Shown here: positions 22,095-62,319 of the stretch, piece after piece | Numbering within the stretch: the stretch's first letter is position 1 | How the letters are laid out: every line of letters starts with the position of its first letter | Source: a bacterium | Lineage (GTDB): Bacteria; SZUA-79; Acidulodesulfobacterales; Acidulodesulfobacteraceae | Direction: 5' to 3' | Length of the DNA stretch: 64,000 bases | Assembly: GCA_021777135.1 (NCBI GenBank) | Contig: JAJYDX010000008.1 | Span: 1-64,000, forward strand | The notes under the pieces: generated by a model | Told to the model about the DNA's origin: nothing | Seen by the model: only the letters and a program-made list of their open reading frames with translations | The model's database searches: none | Position numbers and translations under genes: made by a program

Positions 22095-23534
22095 ATGGGC
22101 ATATTTAAAGACCGGCGTTATTATATTAATAAATTATTAAGCGTTCCGGTATATATAAAAATCGTAGGGATTATTTTTCTCGTTGTAGTAATCATAGAAT
22201 TTGCGACCATTGTATCGATATATTTAATTTTTTATAAGTCGGAATATGCCAGGCTAAAAAAATCAGGAGAAGCGGCAGGCAAGATAATTTCATATAAAAT
22301 AGAAGATTACTTAGAAAGCGGCAATACCGCAGGGTTAAAAAAACTTATTTCTTATACCGTTAGGAATAGTACGATATTGGATTATGCTATAATTAGAAAT
22401 CAAAAAGGCAAAATTATCGTGTCCGCATCAAAAAAAGTACAGCATGGTTATACCCTTGAATATATCAATAAAAACGTAATAAATTTAAAATTCAATATTT
22501 TAAACGACGATTCAAGCGGCAAATACGGTCCTATAGGCGTAAAAATAGGAACCCTTAGTCTGGGCGTATCATCTGATACTTTTCACTATTTTCTTAAAAT
22601 TACCCTTACTCTGATTATTTTCATATTAATTCCTTTTATAACCGTCATGATATTTTTTTTATCCTGGATGTCAAGAACTGTGCTAAAACCGTTGTCCGAT
22701 TTACAAGAGGCATCGGAATCGGCTAAGCTTGGAAATTACAATATAAACATTAAAATCCCTAAGTTTGCGGACGAAAAATTAGCGGGGTTAATAAGCGGAT
22801 TTAATAATATGATGCTTGCTTTTAAGAAAACTGAGAATAAGTGGCAAACAAAAGACTTACAAAGAAAAGAATTTATCGAGGAAATCATTAAAGCTCAGGA
22901 GTTTGAACGGAAAAAGCTTTCACGGGAGCTTCACGACGAAATGGAGCAGTTTTTAGTATATATAAATATGAAATTCCAGATTATCGAAAAACTATACGGC
23001 ATAGGACAGGAAAACAAGGATATAGAAGAAATGCGTTCCTATATCGCAAAGGAGTTCGACAACATAAAGAATATAACCAGAGAGCTCAGGCCAGGCGTGC
23101 TTTATGAGCTTGGATTGTATAAGGCTATAATGCAATATGCGGAAGATGTTAAATTTAATTACGGCATAGACGTCGAACTGTCCGCCTTTGGAATGCAGGA
23201 ATTTAAAGCCGACGAATATGCCGAAATAAATATTTACAGAATTTTTCAAGAGGTATTTTCCAATATAATAAGGCATTCTAATGCTACCGCGGTAAAAGTC
23301 TCTTTAAACTTTGAAAACTGTGTATTACGTGCTGTAATAGAAGATAACGGAAAAGGTTTTAAGCCTTATAAACCTAATAAAGACAAAAATGAAAACTTTG
23401 GAATAATAGGAATGAGGGAGCGGGCGGAAATACTTGGCGGCAGTCTTAATATAAAAACAAAAACGGGACACGGAACCGCAGTGTATTTTAATATACCAGT
23501 AGATATGAAGGATGAGAATAAGGGCGATGCATAA
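22095..23534 (+). CDS. NarX/DegS-type sensor histidine kinase
   Basis: This 479-aa membrane kinase has TM1 at about 20-48, a periplasmic sensor region at about 49-163, TM2 at about 165-192, HAMP at about 190-245, and a HisKA_3 dimerisation domain with the phospho-accepting His280 in RELHDE. The HATPase domain has an N-box (FSNIIRHSNA), EDNGKGF and GIIGMRERAEILGG. This architecture pairs with NarL/FixJ-type regulators, and one follows 178 bases later. The periplasmic domain has no recognised ligand motif. The pair lies directly upstream of the cytochrome genes, making these a candidate target, by proximity only. Confidence 0.92.
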   Translation: MGIFKDRRYYINKLLSVPVYIKIVGIIFLVVVIIEFATIVSIYLIFYKSEYARLKKSGEAAGKIISYKIEDYLESGNTAGLKKLISYTVRNSTILDYAIIRNQKGKIIVSASKKVQHGYTLEYINKNVINLKFNILNDDSSGKYGPIGVKIGTLSLGVSSDTFHYFLKITLTLIIFILIPFITVMIFFLSWMSRTVLKPLSDLQEASESAKLGNYNINIKIPKFADEKLAGLISGFNNMMLAFKKTENKWQTKDLQRKEFIEEIIKAQEFERKKLSRELHDEMEQFLVYINMKFQIIEKLYGIGQENKDIEEMRSYIAKEFDNIKNITRELRPGVLYELGLYKAIMQYAEDVKFNYGIDVELSAFGMQEFKADEYAEINIYRIFQEVFSNIIRHSNATAVKVSLNFENCVLRAVIEDNGKGFKPYKPNKDKNENFGIIGMRERAEILGGSLNIKTKTGHGTAVYFNIPVDMKDENKGDA

Positions 23535-23712: not shown

Positions 23713-24381
23713 ATGAAAAAAATTACGGTTGCGATTGCCGACGACCATCCCATAGTGATATCGGGACTTAAGTCCCTCATGTCTTTACAACCAGAAATAG
23801 ACATTGTTGGAGATATTGCCAATATAGAACTATTGCCCGGGTTCATGGAAAAATATAAGCCGGATATTCTTCTGTTGGATATATCTTTTAACGAAAAAAG
23901 CGGTCTGGATTATATCGGGACAATTAAAGAAAAATCTCCTTCGACTAAAGTGCTTGTCTTAACAATGCATGAAGAGCTATCCCTTCTGCGCGAAGCACTG
24001 AGCATGGGTGCGGCAGGTTACCTTTCAAAACGTTCTATTTACGAAGACCTTTTATATGCCTTAAAATCAATAACAAACGGCGGCACATACATTCATCCTC
24101 TTATGGCTGAAAAACTTGCGCATACCGTTTACGAAGGCGGTATGGGGAGCCTATCTTTAAATAAAGAACCCGAAGAAATTTTATGGGCTTCTTTAAGCAG
24201 GCGCGAACAGGAAATTCTTATTGGCGTCGCTAAAGGACTTTCTAATAAAGAAATAGGGATTCAATACGATTTGAGCGAAAAAACCGTAGCTACATACAGA
24301 CTGCGCGGTTTAGCCAAGCTTAAAATTTCTAATAAAACTAACCTGCTGGACATCTGTCTTAAATTAGGTTACGTTAAGTAA
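23713..24381 (+). CDS. NarL/FixJ-family response regulator
   Basis: This 222-aa regulator has a receiver domain (1-120) with acidic pair DD at 10-11, the phospho-acceptor D56 in LLLDISF, Thr in LVLTMHEE and K106 in YLSKRS. A LuxR-type HTH (about 158-220) has LSRREQEILIGVAKGLSNKEIG. The HTH ends with LDICLKLGYVK. CGGAGGAA precedes the ATG. The 178-base gap from the kinase contains TATAAT-like stretches, so it may have a promoter of its own. It is the likely partner of the upstream kinase. Confidence 0.93.
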   Translation: MKKITVAIADDHPIVISGLKSLMSLQPEIDIVGDIANIELLPGFMEKYKPDILLLDISFNEKSGLDYIGTIKEKSPSTKVLVLTMHEELSLLREALSMGAAGYLSKRSIYEDLLYALKSITNGGTYIHPLMAEKLAHTVYEGGMGSLSLNKEPEEILWASLSRREQEILIGVAKGLSNKEIGIQYDLSEKTVATYRLRGLAKLKISNKTNLLDICLKLGYVK

Positions 24382-24718
24382 AAAAAAATACTACACACCT
24401 TAATACAATTTCTTACATTAAATACGGTATTAATTCTTTCATTATATAGTAATATATCCGACTTTATCTTTAAAATCCCAAGTAATAATATATAAACCAT
24501 ATACTTCCTCTCTCTCAAGTTGTTGGTATATACAATTTCCGTCTTTAAGCCGGAACTTATGGACCCGGCTTAAAGACCAAATTAAAATCTTAAAAACGTA
24601 TGCATCAAAAGATGCGTTAAAAGTTTTTAATTAATTATTAAATTAATATTTAGTGTTTTAATTCGTGTTTTTTAATTTTCTAATTTAACTTTTTAACTTT
24701 AATTTACGGAGGAACAGT
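24382..24718 (+). promoter_or_regulatory. Long AT-rich leader of the cytochrome-porin gene
   Basis: These 337 bases contain no gene. They hold an extended -10-like TGGTATATA (24524-24532) with TACAAT (24531-24536), the strong hairpin at 24541-24577, a smaller GCATC-aaaa-GATGC hairpin near 24602-24615, then AT-rich sequence and a GGAGG site just before the ATG at 24719. If transcription starts near 24540, the mRNA carries a ~178-base 5' leader. Confidence 0.45.
24541..24577 (+). other. 13-bp perfect hairpin in the cytochrome leader
   Basis: GTCTTTAAGCCGG (24541-24553) and its exact complement (24565-24577) flank an 11-base loop. It sits just after the predicted start, where it could protect the mRNA 5' end. 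It could instead be a terminator for the response regulator, but it has no T-tract. Confidence 0.6.
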
Positions 24719-26119
24719 ATGAGAAGCAAACTAGCAGTATTGTTTGTCGCAGTATTAGCCCTTGCGTCTACGGCTTTTTTTATGCCAAAAAAAGCAAACG
24801 CCATAGCGGCATTCGCACAGAAGTACCATTTTTCCTGCGCAGTATGCCATATTAACGGATACGGCGGAGGCGCAAGCTTAAATCCTTTCGGACGCGCATT
24901 TCAAAGAAACGGCTTCAGGCTTCCGTCAACTAACGGAACTCCTGCTGACGCTACGCAGGTAGCCGAAGGATTAAGCCTTCCTAACCCATGGCCTATTCCG
25001 ATAATGATAGAAGTTAATATCGGTTATACGCATGTGCCTAACGAGAATGTAAAAAACTCAACCGACGCTTTCTCGGCTTCAGCGCAGATGCATACAGGCG
25101 GAGCTTTTAAATTATACACCCCCCTTGCCGATACGCTTTCATGGTACACCGGTGTGGATTACGGCACCAGCAGCGTTTCAATGGACAATACGTTTGGAGT
25201 ATTAGACGGGTTGGGTTCCGGGTTCGGGGTGCCTTCTCATTTATTTAATCTTGCATTAGGTTATTCTATTAACGTATTTAATCCAAGTCCATATTTCGGC
25301 GGAGGGTCTGGAAAACAGGCAATAGGTTATGACGGTGGAAGCAGCGTATTGAGCGAAGGAGCAGGATTTCAGCTTTATGGAACTCCTGGCTACCACTTAT
25401 GGTACATGGTTGGCGTGACTAACGGTAATTCTGCAGGCGCGCAAAAAGCTTCTAATGGAATTTCGGGCGGAGTTGGAGGAACTGCTTTAACCACTACCGG
25501 CAATAACTCTATGAATTACAACTGGAGATTAGGAGAATTTTATCCTACATCCGTTGGTACTTTGGAACTGGATTATTACGGCGGAACGGTTGCGCAGCCC
25601 TTAACGGTTTCAAATCAAGGTACTTGGACTAACAGAGTTTTAGATAATGGCGTAGGTATCGGCCTCAGCAACGGTATATATGAAGTAGGAGCTAGTTTAA
25701 ATCAGATATCTGACTCTAATCCATACGCAAACCCTAGCCGTCCGGTCGCTATATCAGGAGTAACTGATACATCAAACGGATACCAATATTTATATCTCTA
25801 CGGCGATTATAAATTCTCGCATTTTATAACAGAAGAAGGAACTTATCTTCAGGTTAGCTATGCCCAGTATGATTGGACACACGCAAGTTCAGAAGATGCC
25901 TTTATTAATTCCGTCAACGGAACAGCTTACGGTTGTAATGCCGGTCTATATGGCAGTCCTGCCAGCCTTGGAGGAACATGCTATGAAGGACAGAAAGACA
26001 ACCTTACCGTCAAAGCCGATATAATGCTGGCAGCAAATGCATTCCTGTCATTAGGATATAACTTCTCGAATATTTCAGAAGAAGACGCATTTACAACTAA
26101 CCTTGAGTTTGCGTTCTAA
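24719..26119 (+). CDS. Cyc2-like outer-membrane cytochrome-porin fusion
   Basis: This 466-aa protein has a signal peptide (1-28, cleavage after KKANA), one c-type haem site C40-A-V-C-H44 near the mature N-terminus, then SLNPFGRAFQRNGFRLP. The remaining ~380 residues look like a beta-barrel: alternating, Gly/Tyr/Asn/Ser-rich, ending in the C-terminal Phe typical of BAM substrates (NLEFAF). A single N-terminal haem followed by an FGR-x-F motif and a porin is the Cyc2 plan known from iron oxidisers. A late loop has two Cys (YGCNAG, GGTCYEG) that may form a disulfide. A periplasmic cytochrome follows after a terminator. Outer-membrane electron transfer is inferred; iron oxidation is not proved. 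Confidence 0.82.
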   Translation: MRSKLAVLFVAVLALASTAFFMPKKANAIAAFAQKYHFSCAVCHINGYGGGASLNPFGRAFQRNGFRLPSTNGTPADATQVAEGLSLPNPWPIPIMIEVNIGYTHVPNENVKNSTDAFSASAQMHTGGAFKLYTPLADTLSWYTGVDYGTSSVSMDNTFGVLDGLGSGFGVPSHLFNLALGYSINVFNPSPYFGGGSGKQAIGYDGGSSVLSEGAGFQLYGTPGYHLWYMVGVTNGNSAGAQKASNGISGGVGGTALTTTGNNSMNYNWRLGEFYPTSVGTLELDYYGGTVAQPLTVSNQGTWTNRVLDNGVGIGLSNGIYEVGASLNQISDSNPYANPSRPVAISGVTDTSNGYQYLYLYGDYKFSHFITEEGTYLQVSYAQYDWTHASSEDAFINSVNGTAYGCNAGLYGSPASLGGTCYEGQKDNLTVKADIMLAANAFLSLGYNFSNISEEDAFTTNLEFAF

Positions 26120-26157
26120 TGTCCTTAAATACGTTTGACTATATATTTGGTTTTAAT

Positions 26158-26197
26158 ATTAAAAGCGGAAGTTTTAACTTCCGCTTTTAATTTAATT
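26158..26197 (+). terminator. Rho-independent terminator after the cytochrome-porin gene
   Basis: Sixteen-base perfect arms (26158-26173 and 26176-26191, core AAAAGCGGAAGTT) with a tiny loop, followed by T-rich TTTTAATTTAATT. It lies between the two cytochrome genes and should reduce read-through. Confidence 0.85.
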
Positions 26198-26224
26198 ACA
26201 ATTTTAAACACGGGGATATAAATT

Positions 26225-26563
26225 ATGAATTGTAAAAAAATATCAACTATAGCTTTAACAGTTATGTCTGTAATAATTTTTACAGCTTCTATGAGTTATG
26301 CCAAATCTGGTAAATCATTATTCGCTGACGAAAGTTGCGTCGGATGTCATGCAATTAACGGAAACGGCGGTTCAGTAGGTCCCGACCTTTCTCATGAAGG
26401 CAGCAAGAGAAACCTCGCATGGATTAAAAAACAAATAACGGATCCTTCGTCGCATTTTGCTCCGGGTTCCATGGACGGTTCGTATCCAGCGATAATGCCG
26501 GCAACTTCTATGTCTAAAGCCGATATTAGCGCACTCGCGGATTATATTAAATCGCAGAAATAA
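26225..26563 (+). CDS. Periplasmic monohaem cytochrome c (class I)
   Basis: This 112-aa protein has a signal peptide (1-26, ending MSYA), one haem motif C38-V-G-C-H42 and a probable axial Met91 in AIMPATSM. The GxVGPDLSHEG and ALADYIKSQK segments are typical of small class I cytochromes c. It would act as a soluble periplasmic electron carrier. It is the natural partner for the outer-membrane cytochrome-porin just upstream, passing electrons to or from inner-membrane complexes (inferred from adjacency). Terminators on both sides suggest it is expressed separately or by read-through. Confidence 0.93.
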   Translation: MNCKKISTIALTVMSVIIFTASMSYAKSGKSLFADESCVGCHAINGNGGSVGPDLSHEGSKRNLAWIKKQITDPSSHFAPGSMDGSYPAIMPATSMSKADISALADYIKSQK

Positions 26564-58221: not shown

Positions 58222-59670
58222 ATGCCTTATAAAGACCTTCATGAATTTATTCGGATATTAGAAAAAAATAACGACTTGCTCAGGGTAGCAGCTCCCGTAG
58301 ACAGGATTTTGGAAATAGCTGAAATTGCCGACAGGATGGTAAAAAAAGAGGGTCCGGCACTTTTATTCGAAAATGTAAAAGGTTATAATTTCCCAGTTTT
58401 AATAAATATGTTCGGTTCAAATAAACGGATATTACAAGCTTTCGAGGTTGAAAGCCTGGATGACGTCGGAAAAAGAATTTCTGAAATAATAGACCCAGAA
58501 ATTCCTACAAATTTTTTCGAAAAAATAAAATCTCTTTCAAAGCTAAAAAAACTTGCAGATTATATGCCTAAAATCGTCAAGAATGCCAAATGCAAAGAGG
58601 TTGTAATAAACAAGCCTCCTTTATTAGATATTTTGCCGGTTTTAAAGACATGGCCGGAAGACGGCGGACCCTTTATTACGCTTCCCCTTGTTTTTACTAA
58701 AGATCCTGAAAGCGGTTCAACCAACGTCGGCATGTATAGAATACAGGTTTACGACGATGTTTCCTGCGGTATGCACTGGCACATACATAAAGACGGTGCA
58801 AGGCATTTCAGAAAATATAAAGAACTTGGGAGAAAAATACCCGTCTCGGTAGTTGTAGGTTCTGATCCGGCAGTTATTTATTCTGCCACCGCACCCCTTC
58901 CGCCCGATATAGAAGAGATGATGTTTGCCGGATTTTTAAGAGGCGAAGCCGTAGAACTCGTAAAATGCGAGACTAACGATATATATGTTCCGGCAAATGC
59001 AGAATTTGTCATAGAAGGCTATATCGACCCTTCTGAAGATTTCAGGATAGAAGGTCCTTTCGGCGACCATACAGGATATTATTCTCTTGAGGATTTTTAT
59101 CCAGTGTTTCATGCGGTACTAATAACTCACAGAAAAGATGCCGTATATCCGGCGACCATCGTTGGAAAACCTCCTATGGAAGACTGCTATATAGGGAAGG
59201 CTACGGAAAGGTTTTTTCTGCCTGCTATAAAAAAAATATTTCCTGAAATTATCGATATAAACCTGCCGTTTGAAGGAATATTTCATGATTTGGCATTCAT
59301 AAGTATTAAAAAAAGTTATCCCGGTCATGCCAAAAAAATTATGCACGGAATATGGGGCTTGGGTCTTATGATGTTTACTAAAATAATAGTCGTATTGGAC
59401 GAGGATGTTAATGTTCAGGATAAAAGCGAGGTTATCTGGAGAATATGTAATAATATCGATCCAAAAAGAGACGTTTCTTTCGTCGAAGGACCTATTGACG
59501 TTTTGGAACATGCTTCCGATATTCCTAACTACGGTTCTAAAATGGGTATAGATGCCACAAAGAAATGGGCTTCGGAAGGCTATAAAAGAAAATGGCCTAA
59601 TGATATCGTTATGTCTTCCGATATAAAACAGCTTGTTGACGAGAGATGGCAGGAATATGGCTTGAGTTAA
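58222..59670 (+). CDS. ubiD: UbiD-family prenylated-FMN decarboxylase (menaquinone, MqnL-type)
   Basis: This prFMN-dependent decarboxylase acts on the prenylated hydroxynaphthoate of the futalosine menaquinone route (inferred from context). The 482-aa product has MPYKDLHEFIRILEK, PALLFENVKGY, MHWHIHKDGARHF, EGYIDPSEDFRIEGPFGDHTG and DLAFISIKKSYPGHAKK, with the E-x-P-F-G-D-H-T-G motif of UbiD proteins. It leads a ubiD-ubiA-ubiX-mqnE run. There is no clear Shine-Dalgarno. Confidence 0.92.
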   Translation: MPYKDLHEFIRILEKNNDLLRVAAPVDRILEIAEIADRMVKKEGPALLFENVKGYNFPVLINMFGSNKRILQAFEVESLDDVGKRISEIIDPEIPTNFFEKIKSLSKLKKLADYMPKIVKNAKCKEVVINKPPLLDILPVLKTWPEDGGPFITLPLVFTKDPESGSTNVGMYRIQVYDDVSCGMHWHIHKDGARHFRKYKELGRKIPVSVVVGSDPAVIYSATAPLPPDIEEMMFAGFLRGEAVELVKCETNDIYVPANAEFVIEGYIDPSEDFRIEGPFGDHTGYYSLEDFYPVFHAVLITHRKDAVYPATIVGKPPMEDCYIGKATERFFLPAIKKIFPEIIDINLPFEGIFHDLAFISIKKSYPGHAKKIMHGIWGLGLMMFTKIIVVLDEDVNVQDKSEVIWRICNNIDPKRDVSFVEGPIDVLEHASDIPNYGSKMGIDATKKWASEGYKRKWPNDIVMSSDIKQLVDERWQEYGLS

Positions 59671-59675
59671 ATAAA

Positions 59676-60569
59676 ATGTTTAAAAAAATAAAAAATACGT
59701 TAGAATTAGTCAAGTTTTCTCATACAATATTCGTCCTACCCTTCGCCCTTAGCGCTTTTCTTCTTGCATTCTACGACAAATATCCGGCATCTTTCGGCAC
59801 CTATTTTTTTTATTATAAGATAATATGGGTCGTTATCGCTATGGCTTCAGGAAGAAGCGGCGCAATGGCATTTAACAGGATAATAGACAGAAAAATAGAC
59901 GCAAAAAATAAAAGGACGATGGAAAGAACAATTCCGAAAGGTGAACTTACTACTTTATACGGGGTTATTTTCGGCATAATTTCTTACGCAATTTTAATAA
60001 TTGCGGCATATGAACTTAATTTCATATGTTTTGCCCTTTCCCCTTTCGTAATAATTTTTATTACATTTTATTCTTTTACTAAAAGATTTACATTTTTTTC
60101 CCATACGGTTTTAGGAATCAGTATGGCCTTAGGTCCGATAGGAGCATGGCTTGCCGTTACCGGCGGCTTAAATTATAAGATTTTAATTATGGGTCTGGCC
60201 GTTGTTCTTTGGGGCGCAGGATTTGATATTCTCTACGCTATATTAGATTATGATTTCGATACCGCAAACGGGCTTTTTTCCGTCCCCGCAAAATTTGGAA
60301 TAGAAAACGCAATAACTATTTCGAGGATTTTACACCTACTTGCTTTAACCTGTCTGGTTTATTTATATTTTATATTCAATCTTAATTTTTTGTATATTGT
60401 AGGAATGGTCATAGTCGCCTGTTTTTTTGCTTATGAACATTTTTTGGTTTATAAGAGTTTAAATAATATAGACGCGGCATTTTTTACTATGAACGGATAT
60501 ATTTCCATAACTTTTTTTGTTTTTATATCGGCAAGCGTCTTATATTCTAAATTTTTTATTATGCCGTAA
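59676..60569 (+). CDS. ubiA: UbiA-family prenyltransferase (MqnP-type)
   Basis: This membrane enzyme attaches the polyprenyl chain to the quinone ring. The ~297-aa product has a polar start and VKFSHTIFVLPFAL. The two Asp-rich Mg-diphosphate motifs are NRIIDRKIDAKN and YAILDYDFDTAN. About eight to nine membrane segments follow. I prefer the ATG at 59676 to the in-frame ATG at 59646, which overlaps ubiD and adds residues not expected for the family; neither has a strong ribosome site. ubiX starts one base after its stop. Confidence 0.91.
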   Translation: MFKKIKNTLELVKFSHTIFVLPFALSAFLLAFYDKYPASFGTYFFYYKIIWVVIAMASGRSGAMAFNRIIDRKIDAKNKRTMERTIPKGELTTLYGVIFGIISYAILIIAAYELNFICFALSPFVIIFITFYSFTKRFTFFSHTVLGISMALGPIGAWLAVTGGLNYKILIMGLAVVLWGAGFDILYAILDYDFDTANGLFSVPAKFGIENAITISRILHLLALTCLVYLYFIFNLNFLYIVGMVIVACFFAYEHFLVYKSLNNIDAAFFTMNGYISITFFVFISASVLYSKFFIMP

Positions 60570-61253
60570 ATGAATATAAAAGAAAATATTAATAAAGAAA
60601 CTAACGAAAGTTCTTACATAGTCGCAATTACAGGAGCGTCAGGACCGATATACGGCTTCAGCCTCCTTAAGGCTTTGATATTTCGTTCTTTTTTTGTGCA
60701 TCTTATAATTTCCAAGCCAGGTTTTAGGGTCATAAAAGATGAACTTGGAATGTTTGGGAATATTTCAGAGCCTTATATAAACGCCGCAAACAAATCTTTA
60801 AATATAAAAGACGAGATAATAAATAAATTCGGACTGCAAAAAGTCGGTGACAGGTTTGCTATTTTAGACGATGATTTTTTAGAAGCGCGTATTGCCAGCG
60901 GTTCAGCCAAAAATGTTAACGGCATGGCGGTTATTCCATGTTCAATGGGCAGCCTTTCAAGAATAGCAAACGGAATTTCAGGGAATCTTATAGAACGGGC
61001 TGCTGACGTTATGCTTAAAGAAAGAAAAAAACTTGTCGTCTGTCCCAGAGAAACCCCGTTTAGCGATATTCACCTTAAAAATATGCTGTCGCTATACTCA
61101 TCCGGAGCGTCAATACTTCCTCCGATACCGGCATTTTATAATAAGCCTCAAACAATAGACGACATTGTGGATTTTATAACGGGTAAAATTTTAGACAGTC
61201 TAGGTATAGATAACGATATTTATTCAAGATGGAACGGTTATGACGCAAAATAA
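60570..61253 (+). CDS. ubiX: UbiX flavin prenyltransferase
   Basis: UbiX makes prenylated FMN, the cofactor of UbiD. The 227-aa product has AITGASGPIYGFSLLKAL near the N-terminus, VIPCSMGSLSRIANG in the middle, and CPRETPFSDIHLKNML near the end, all UbiX motifs. The N-terminal ~16 residues are extra. It directly follows ubiA and overlaps mqnE by 14 bases, matching the functional link. Confidence 0.94.
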   Translation: MNIKENINKETNESSYIVAITGASGPIYGFSLLKALIFRSFFVHLIISKPGFRVIKDELGMFGNISEPYINAANKSLNIKDEIINKFGLQKVGDRFAILDDDFLEARIASGSAKNVNGMAVIPCSMGSLSRIANGISGNLIERAADVMLKERKKLVVCPRETPFSDIHLKNMLSLYSSGASILPPIPAFYNKPQTIDDIVDFITGKILDSLGIDNDIYSRWNGYDAK

Positions 61254-62319
61254 AAATTTTGATTTAATAAAAGAAAAGGTTTATAATAATAAACGATTAT
61301 CTGCAGATGATGCTTTGTTTTTGTTTAAATCCCATGATTTAATTACATTGGGCGAACTGGCAAACTTCAAAAACTTTAAAGTTAACGGAGATAAAGTATA
61401 TTATATCGTTAATATCCACATAAATTATACCAATATATGCGTTAACAGGTGCGCCTTCTGTGCTTTCTACAGAAAGGGAAAGGAAACGGACGCATATTCA
61501 ATGAGCGTGGACGATATAATAGATTATATTAAGACAAATTACAAAACTAATAATTTTAAAGAAGTTCATATAGTCGGAGGTCTTCATCCATCCCTCCCTT
61601 ACGGCTTTTATTTAAATATGGTTCAAAGGATAAAAAAAGAGTTTCCGTCTCTAAAAATACAGGCCTTTACGGCGGTAGAAATAGATTATTTATCTAAAAT
61701 TTCCGGGTTGTCCGAAAAAGACGTATTGAATGATTTAAAAGAAAACGGTTTGGACAGTATTCCAGGGGGCGGAGCAGAAATTTTTAATCCTGCCGTAAGA
61801 AAAAGATTATGTCCTCAAAAAATTAGCGGGGAAAGGTGGTTAAAAATTCACAAAACAGCCCATAAAATAGGGATTCCTTCCAATGCTTCTATGCTTTATG
61901 GAGTAAAAGAACGCTATGAAGACAGGGTAAGCCATTTAAACGAAATAAGGCTTGCGCAGGATGAATCGGGCGGATTTAATTCATTTATTCCCTTCGCATT
62001 CCAGCCAAAAAACACCGCGGTAAAAAATTCAGCCACAACTTCGGGATATGACGATCTTAAGGTAATTGCTATTTCACGCCTATTTTTAGATAATTTTAAG
62101 CATATAAAAACATTCTATGTGAACCTTGGTATTAATCTTGCGCAGGTTTCCCTTTCTTTCGGAGCCGACGATTTTGACGGCACGTTAACTGAGGAAAAAA
62201 TATCGCATAATGCCGGTTCGGTTCATCCAGTCGGTCTTAGCGTTAAAAACGTAAAAAAGATAATAGAAGAAACCGGCAAACTTCCAGTTGAAAGAGATAC
62301 TTTATATAATGTTTTTTAA
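61240..62319 (+). CDS. mqnE: Aminofutalosine synthase MqnE (radical SAM)
   Basis: MqnE joins the MqnA product (3-enolpyruvyl-benzoate) to adenosine by radical chemistry, giving aminofutalosine for menaquinone. The 359-aa product has NIHINYTNICVNRCAFCAFYR, whose CxxxCxxC binds the cluster, then SIPGGGAEIFNPAVRKRLCP and NASMLYGVKERYEDRVSHL. These favour MqnE over the similar MqnC. The rest of the pathway (mqnA, C, D) is not in the window. It overlaps ubiX by 14 bases. Confidence 0.92.
   Translation: MTQNKNFDLIKEKVYNNKRLSADDALFLFKSHDLITLGELANFKNFKVNGDKVYYIVNIHINYTNICVNRCAFCAFYRKGKETDAYSMSVDDIIDYIKTNYKTNNFKEVHIVGGLHPSLPYGFYLNMVQRIKKEFPSLKIQAFTAVEIDYLSKISGLSEKDVLNDLKENGLDSIPGGGAEIFNPAVRKRLCPQKISGERWLKIHKTAHKIGIPSNASMLYGVKERYEDRVSHLNEIRLAQDESGGFNSFIPFAFQPKNTAVKNSATTSGYDDLKVIAISRLFLDNFKHIKTFYVNLGINLAQVSLSFGADDFDGTLTEEKISHNAGSVHPVGLSVKNVKKIIEETGKLPVERDTLYNVF

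Follow-up and report, generated by a model that had tools for sequence, protein, structure and literature searches.

In metagenomic work, Cyc2 serves as a marker of iron oxidation. In its described forms, such as those of Acidithiobacillus ferrooxidans (cluster 2) and Mariprofundus (cluster 1), a signal peptide is followed by a short cytochrome domain with a single CxxCH and then by a 16-strand barrel, and cytochromes c are often encoded nearby. Keffer et al. define Cyc2 by the motif AxPxFAR[Q/K][T/Y], and describe a second motif, PxL, with a proline that seems to contribute to haem stability (PMC8406198). The model given there makes the cytochrome domain a plug at the periplasmic end of the barrel, so that iron has to come inside the pore (PMC8406198). 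Fe(II) oxidation has been verified for Cyc2 and Cyt572 (PMC8406198, PMC7029218), and the Cyc2 of Acidithiobacillus, including A. ferrooxidans, has also been proposed as a (terminal) Fe(III) reductase (PMC8790237, PMC7735108). In "Candidatus Acidulodesulfobacterales," an order placed in phylum SZUA-79 (PMC6776010; PMC10591310), Tan et al. (2019) described cyt572-like genes in each of the four genomes, with one ranking among the top 20 transcripts (PMC6776010).

Here, we describe a divergent relative of these proteins that is encoded in a window of 64,000 nucleotides (the whole stretch of DNA that was analysed), itself part of a 74.9-kb contig in a 2.12-Mb assembly of 92 contigs. The genome probably derives from an uncultured sulfate-reducing lineage of acid mines and fits "Ca. 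Acidulodesulfobacterales"; dsrA scored over the curated cut-off in 23 of the 30 genomes of the family set, the window's own among the 23. In the genome set compared, every relative closer than the rank of domain falls in this one family. The published cyt572-like genes (PMC6776010), compared here by description only, probably come from this lineage and encode this kind of protein, and they more likely correspond to the conventional copy found across the lineage than to the window paralogue, which was found in two species only. A cyt572-like gene in this order was already known. What is new is a divergent second copy with an altered motif and its own leader, along with evidence that the lineage's copies do not pass the published motif screen when it is read strictly, and a mismatch between conduits and terminal oxidases. 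The features of the locus are as follows.

22095..23534, + strand: sensor histidine kinase with HAMP, HisKA_3, and HATPase_c domains (Pfam).
23713..24381, + strand: NarL/FixJ-type response regulator with Response_reg and GerE domains (Pfam); the same 222-aa ORF occurs in L003/L006.
24440..24600, + strand: conserved leader element, seen ahead of this clade's three paralogues (window, L003, L033) and of no other copies.
24719..26119, + strand: divergent Cyc2-like fused monohaem cytochrome-porin of 466 aa (ORF, family alignment, AlphaFold2, Foldseek, HHalign, tree).
24719..24802, + strand: signal-peptide-like N-terminus, aa 1-28, ending in KKANA (sequence, judged by eye).
24800..24826, + strand: AIAAFAQKY, aa 28-36, standing where Cyc2 has AxPxFAR[QK][TY] and differing from it by P->A and R->Q (alignment; motif per PMC8406198).
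24836..24850, + strand: haem-binding CAVCH, aa 40-44, invariant among 26 family members.
24851..24877, + strand: INGYGGGAS, aa 45-53, in place of the conventional TVFPN, with the PxL proline gone and four columns inserted (alignment).
25001..26116, + strand: predicted 16-strand outer-membrane barrel, aa 95-466, with a terminal Phe (AlphaFold2; Foldseek matches to porins, E 3e-10).
26160..26189, + strand: terminator-like hairpin between the two genes (z -7.2), also present in the nearest relative.
26225..26563, + strand: 112-aa periplasmic monohaem class I cytochrome c (Pfam PF00034, E 1.2e-15).

The initial annotation had described a signal peptide, one CxxCH, the string PFGRAFQRNGF, and a C-terminal Phe, and the 466-aa ORF shows all of these, the first as a signal-peptide-like start. 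The protein begins with MRSKLAVLFVAVLALASTAFFMPKKANA, which resembles a signal peptide by eye, and ends in LEFAF; its single CxxCH is the CAVCH listed above, and PFGRAFQRNGF occupies aa 56-66. It thus has the signal peptide (by eye), the single CxxCH, and the length of at least 365 aa by which Cyc2 is recognised. No family in Pfam or NCBIfam spans the protein, and no PDB chain was matched by its sequence or profile. That such a protein might be an ordinary porin whose CxxCH is an accident, or the product of a decaying pseudogene, is very improbable. A CxxCH arose by chance in 0.05% of 20,000 shuffles of the window protein, the motif is invariant across all 26 aligned family members, and the N-terminal domain matches profiles of Cyc2-type sets, as described below. 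Moreover, comparison with the L003 cytochrome-porin yielded a dN/dS of 0.047 at a dS of about 0.96, which indicates strong purifying selection between these two species and led us to reject decay of the window copy. Decay would find its example in a third member of the clade (L033, the same locus as L004), in which codon 33, just ahead of the haem motif, is an in-frame TAG that reflects either a pseudogene or an assembly error.

Profile comparisons connect the lineage to Cyc2-type proteins. Three profiles were used: A1, from 26 family copies; A2, from AxPxFARKY-type cytochrome-porins of many phyla; and A3, from a FARQT-type set that includes proteins on plasmids of A. ferrooxidans and Caballeronia. 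Searching with A1 gave N-terminal matches in 50 further genomes beyond the family, and the extracted nonfamily matches have AxPxFAR[K/Q][Y/T]...CxxCH...PxLxxFG..F..NG[YF] in common, with small departures. By HHalign, A1 aligned with A2 over 305 columns, which is most of the length (probability 99.8, E 6e-30), as did A2 with A3 (374 columns, again most of the length; E 6e-28), and between A1 and A3 the cytochrome domain alone was aligned. The A1 N-terminal domain by itself reached 99.7% against A2 and 98.9% against A3, whereas ordinary small cytochromes c, the negative control, reached 16-37% over about 18 columns (16% over 18 columns in the match to A1). Profiles of the barrel only gave 90% for A1/A2, 97% for A2/A3, and 3% for A1/A3; by this measure alone, the lineage's barrel has no detectable homology to the FARQT-type set. 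The best profile match outside the lineage is A2, with homology reaching into the barrel, although a long branch divides the window's lineage from all others in the tree. The window protein belongs to the broad superfamily of Cyc2-type fused cytochrome-porins through its cytochrome domain and, at least in part, its barrel. "Cyc2-like," or a Cyc2-type fused monohaem cytochrome-porin in the broad sense, holds as its description because the family profile joins Cyc2-type fusions while ordinary cytochromes c fail to match.

Related searches covered plasmids, phages, and the barrel of porin-multihaem systems (MtrAB/PioAB/MtoAB). With tblastn against plasmids, named Cyc2-type proteins matched through the cytochrome domain only, and one match was then used as bait. 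Plasmid-borne relatives occur in Caballeronia, Methylocystis, A. ferrooxidans, Paraburkholderia, Ideonella, and Polymorphobacter; in every case, a c-type cytochrome is annotated no more than a few kilobases away. A search of phage sequences for relatives of the window protein found none, and TIGR03509, the MtrB/PioB barrel, had no match in the 30 genomes or in any control genome.

Structure prediction bore out the suggestion of a 16-strand barrel. AlphaFold2 models of the window copy and of the genome's conventional copy each contain 16 strands fused to the cytochrome domain, with modest confidence (mean pLDDT of 56 and pLDDT of 63, respectively), and the cytochrome (haem) domain is the worst-modelled part of both. 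The best solved matches found by Foldseek are porins of the OmpC/OmpF and OprB types (best E 3e-10; TM-scores of 0.4-0.6). The initial annotation had assigned the gene to the Cyc2 plan; its domain order, profile homology, predicted barrel, and porin folds all agree with that plan, but the window copy departs from the published motif and lacks PxL.

These departures are best seen against the second, conventional copy encoded elsewhere in the same genome, which is 51% identical to the window copy. At least one copy of the cytochrome-porin is present in 28 of the 30 family genomes. The aligned sequence is AIPAFAQKYHFSCAVCHTVFPNLNPFGRAFWRNGF in conventional copies and AIAAFAQKYHFSCAVCHINGYGGGASLNPFGRAFQRNGF in the window copy and L003, its orthologue. 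Neither kind matches AxPxFAR[Q/K][T/Y] exactly: the window's AIAAFAQKY departs from it twice and the conventional AIPAFAQKY once (R->Q). PxL is found in the conventional TVFPNL and is missing from the window's INGYGGGASL, which has no proline. Judged by its sequence, then, the window copy is not a strict Cyc2, because AIAAFAQKY replaces AxPxFAR[QK][TY] and PxL is lost; it also differs from Cyc2 by the four inserted columns. The window copy retains the cytochrome core (CxxCH and LNPFGR.F..NGF) and barrel positions. In a tree made by a quick method, with long branches and without cluster 1 or 3 references, such that no cluster assignment is read from it, all 32 lineage copies form one clade (support of 100) on a long branch, set apart from the FARQT-type set; within it, the window copy, L003, and L033 form a clade of their own (SH-aLRT of 99), separate from the 29 other lineage copies. 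The window copy, in short, is a paralogue that has diverged and been conserved, and its motif on the haem side is altered. We infer that this altered motif probably shifts its haem environment or potential relative to those of the conventional copy.

The paralogue also has its own upstream context. The response regulator gene that precedes it stays upstream of the cytochrome-porin gene in the nearest relative. Within the leader, a near-identical block of 70 nt accompanies a hairpin with 14 bp (24541-24577) and the invariant loop AACTTATGG; two both-side changes among the three sequences are too few for a strong claim of covariation, and every Rfam match to the leader fell far under the gathering score. 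Conventional copies (L002, L007, L008, L012, and others) have a different, purine-rich conserved leader, CTTTTAAGGAGGTGGCAGAGGAGAAAGA, about 100 nt before the ATG. This private leader and the adjacent two-component system, together with the restriction to two species, the loss of both the PxL and the AxPxF prolines, the four-column insertion, and the separate deep clade, are what one would expect if the paralogue had drifted from iron to another role (redox sensing, uptake, or work on some other small redox substrate) and left iron to the conventional copy. We regard such a drift as unlikely. CxxCH, LNPFGR.F..NGF, and barrel positions are under strong purifying selection in the paralogue, and a small cytochrome c gene remains alongside it.

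That small cytochrome had been noted as a 112-aa monohaem protein encoded 105 bases downstream, and the gap is exactly 105 bases. Its start resembles a signal peptide, it contains one CVGCH, and an orthologue with 81% identity adjoins the cytochrome-porin gene of the nearest relative; the two-species comparison gave a dN/dS of 0.097 at a dS of about 1. The protein belongs to a large family of small cytochromes with nine matches in its own genome. The two genes form only a loose pair. Their adjacency is kept in the nearest relative, but a simple two-gene operon is doubtful, because a conserved terminator-like hairpin separates the genes; it is strong, has a T-rich 3' arm, and is found in both species. 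Small cytochromes c recur beside family copies in varying arrangements. For instance, a haem-c ORF lies on the same strand within 1.3 kb of 18 of the 33 cytochrome-porin copies examined, and contig ends truncate some of the other 15. Elsewhere in the genus, the gene for a 129-aa monohaem cytochrome precedes the conventional copy by about 300 bases, and another cytochrome-porin copy, in G003, lies upstream of Rieske/cytochrome b genes.

Taken together, these results make it probable that the protein is a conduit of the Cyc2/Cyt572 kind in the outer membrane and that it exchanges electrons with dissolved iron. The exported protein would hold its short N-terminal monohaem domain at the periplasmic mouth of the 16-strand barrel, where dissolved iron, as the presumed substrate, could enter the pore and exchange electrons with the haem domain. 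Its periplasmic partner may be among the small monohaem cytochromes c in which the lineage is rich, for example the adjacent 112-aa protein, and these cytochromes would connect to the Rieske/cytochrome b complex and the menaquinone pool. Components of this route are encoded in the genome, in which Rieske and cytochrome b genes precede the gene for a 510-aa protein that has a single haem motif. Also, futalosine menaquinone genes for MqnL, an MqnP-like prenyltransferase, UbiX, and MqnE lie in the window at 58222-62319, with MqnL and MqnE above the cut-off.

The direction of electron flow is less certain, and gene content mildly favours electron export to Fe(III) over iron oxidation. In the window's genome, PF00115 detected no cytochrome c oxidase, its matches being a NorB-type 765-aa protein and a 140-aa orphan. 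Although metagenome assembly can miss genes, no cytochrome c oxidase was detected in 27 of the 30 family genomes, in a family in which nearly all carry the conduit. Cytochrome bd was matched in 25 of the 30, one match being a short fragment, and the window's genome has it. Without a cytochrome c oxidase, low-pH Fe(II) oxidation has no obvious energy-yielding sink, and the transfer of electrons from menaquinol to Fe(III) is strongly downhill. Because no cytochrome c oxidase was found, because Rieske/b, bd, and menaquinone genes are present, and because Acidithiobacillus offers a precedent for an Fe(III) reductase, we lean, at about even confidence, toward an outward flow to Fe(III), in which electrons would pass from menaquinol through the b/Rieske complex and a small cytochrome c to the conduit. 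It is possible, but we suggest it only tentatively, that Cyc2-type proteins serve as outward terminal Fe(III) reductases throughout this acid-tolerant, sulfate-reducing lineage of phylum rank and that the window species has, in addition, a second, differently regulated conduit with a retuned haem for a different redox window.

The conduit could instead run inward as an Fe(II) oxidase, with electrons passing from the cyt572-like protein to cyt579 and cyc1 and ending at a cbb3 oxidase in genomes that have one, at a periplasmic protein resembling nitrite reductase, or, by uphill transfer, at quinone. This has been proposed for the order, in which the cyt572-like gene is highly transcribed in AP4 (Tan et al. 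2019, PMC6776010), and it accords with the Fe(II) oxidation verified for Cyc2 and Cyt572. Inward flow has possible sinks: three relatives have a full-length cbb3-type oxidase subunit (G012, G019, and G022, in two of which a cytochrome subunit gene adjoins the oxidase gene), and the window genome encodes a cytochrome-d1-propeller protein that could draw electrons from cytochrome c. The latter, with two haem-c motifs, is encoded beside three small cytochromes c (C14; L119:167-3999) and, as a possible alternative sink, weakens the argument for outward flow. We nevertheless consider inward flow a doubtful alternative for this lineage, as the conduit is far more widespread than cytochrome c oxidase, which the window's genome also appears to lack, and as the menaquinone genes imply, by established redox potentials, a high cost for moving electrons uphill from low-pH Fe(II). 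A NirJ-like radical SAM protein that scores under the curated cut-off is also encoded at the d1-propeller locus.

These observations bear on how iron metabolism is read from metagenomes. A conduit in nearly every genome and a cytochrome c oxidase in almost none warn that the Cyc2 marker may signal iron reduction too. Moreover, the published screen PxFAR[QK][TY], as worded, would drop both the window paralogue and the conventional copies (PAFAQKY), so motif-based tools may undercount this lineage because its copies fail that pattern.

Two further observations were made in the family set. The window's genome (L048:2022-2444) and most family genomes encode a protein of 140-150 aa that is similar to the C-terminal helices of COX1 but is not accompanied by a catalytic subunit. 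Also, G019 carries a further Cyc2-like copy, which lies divergent from cydAB-like genes (L125:5178-9708).
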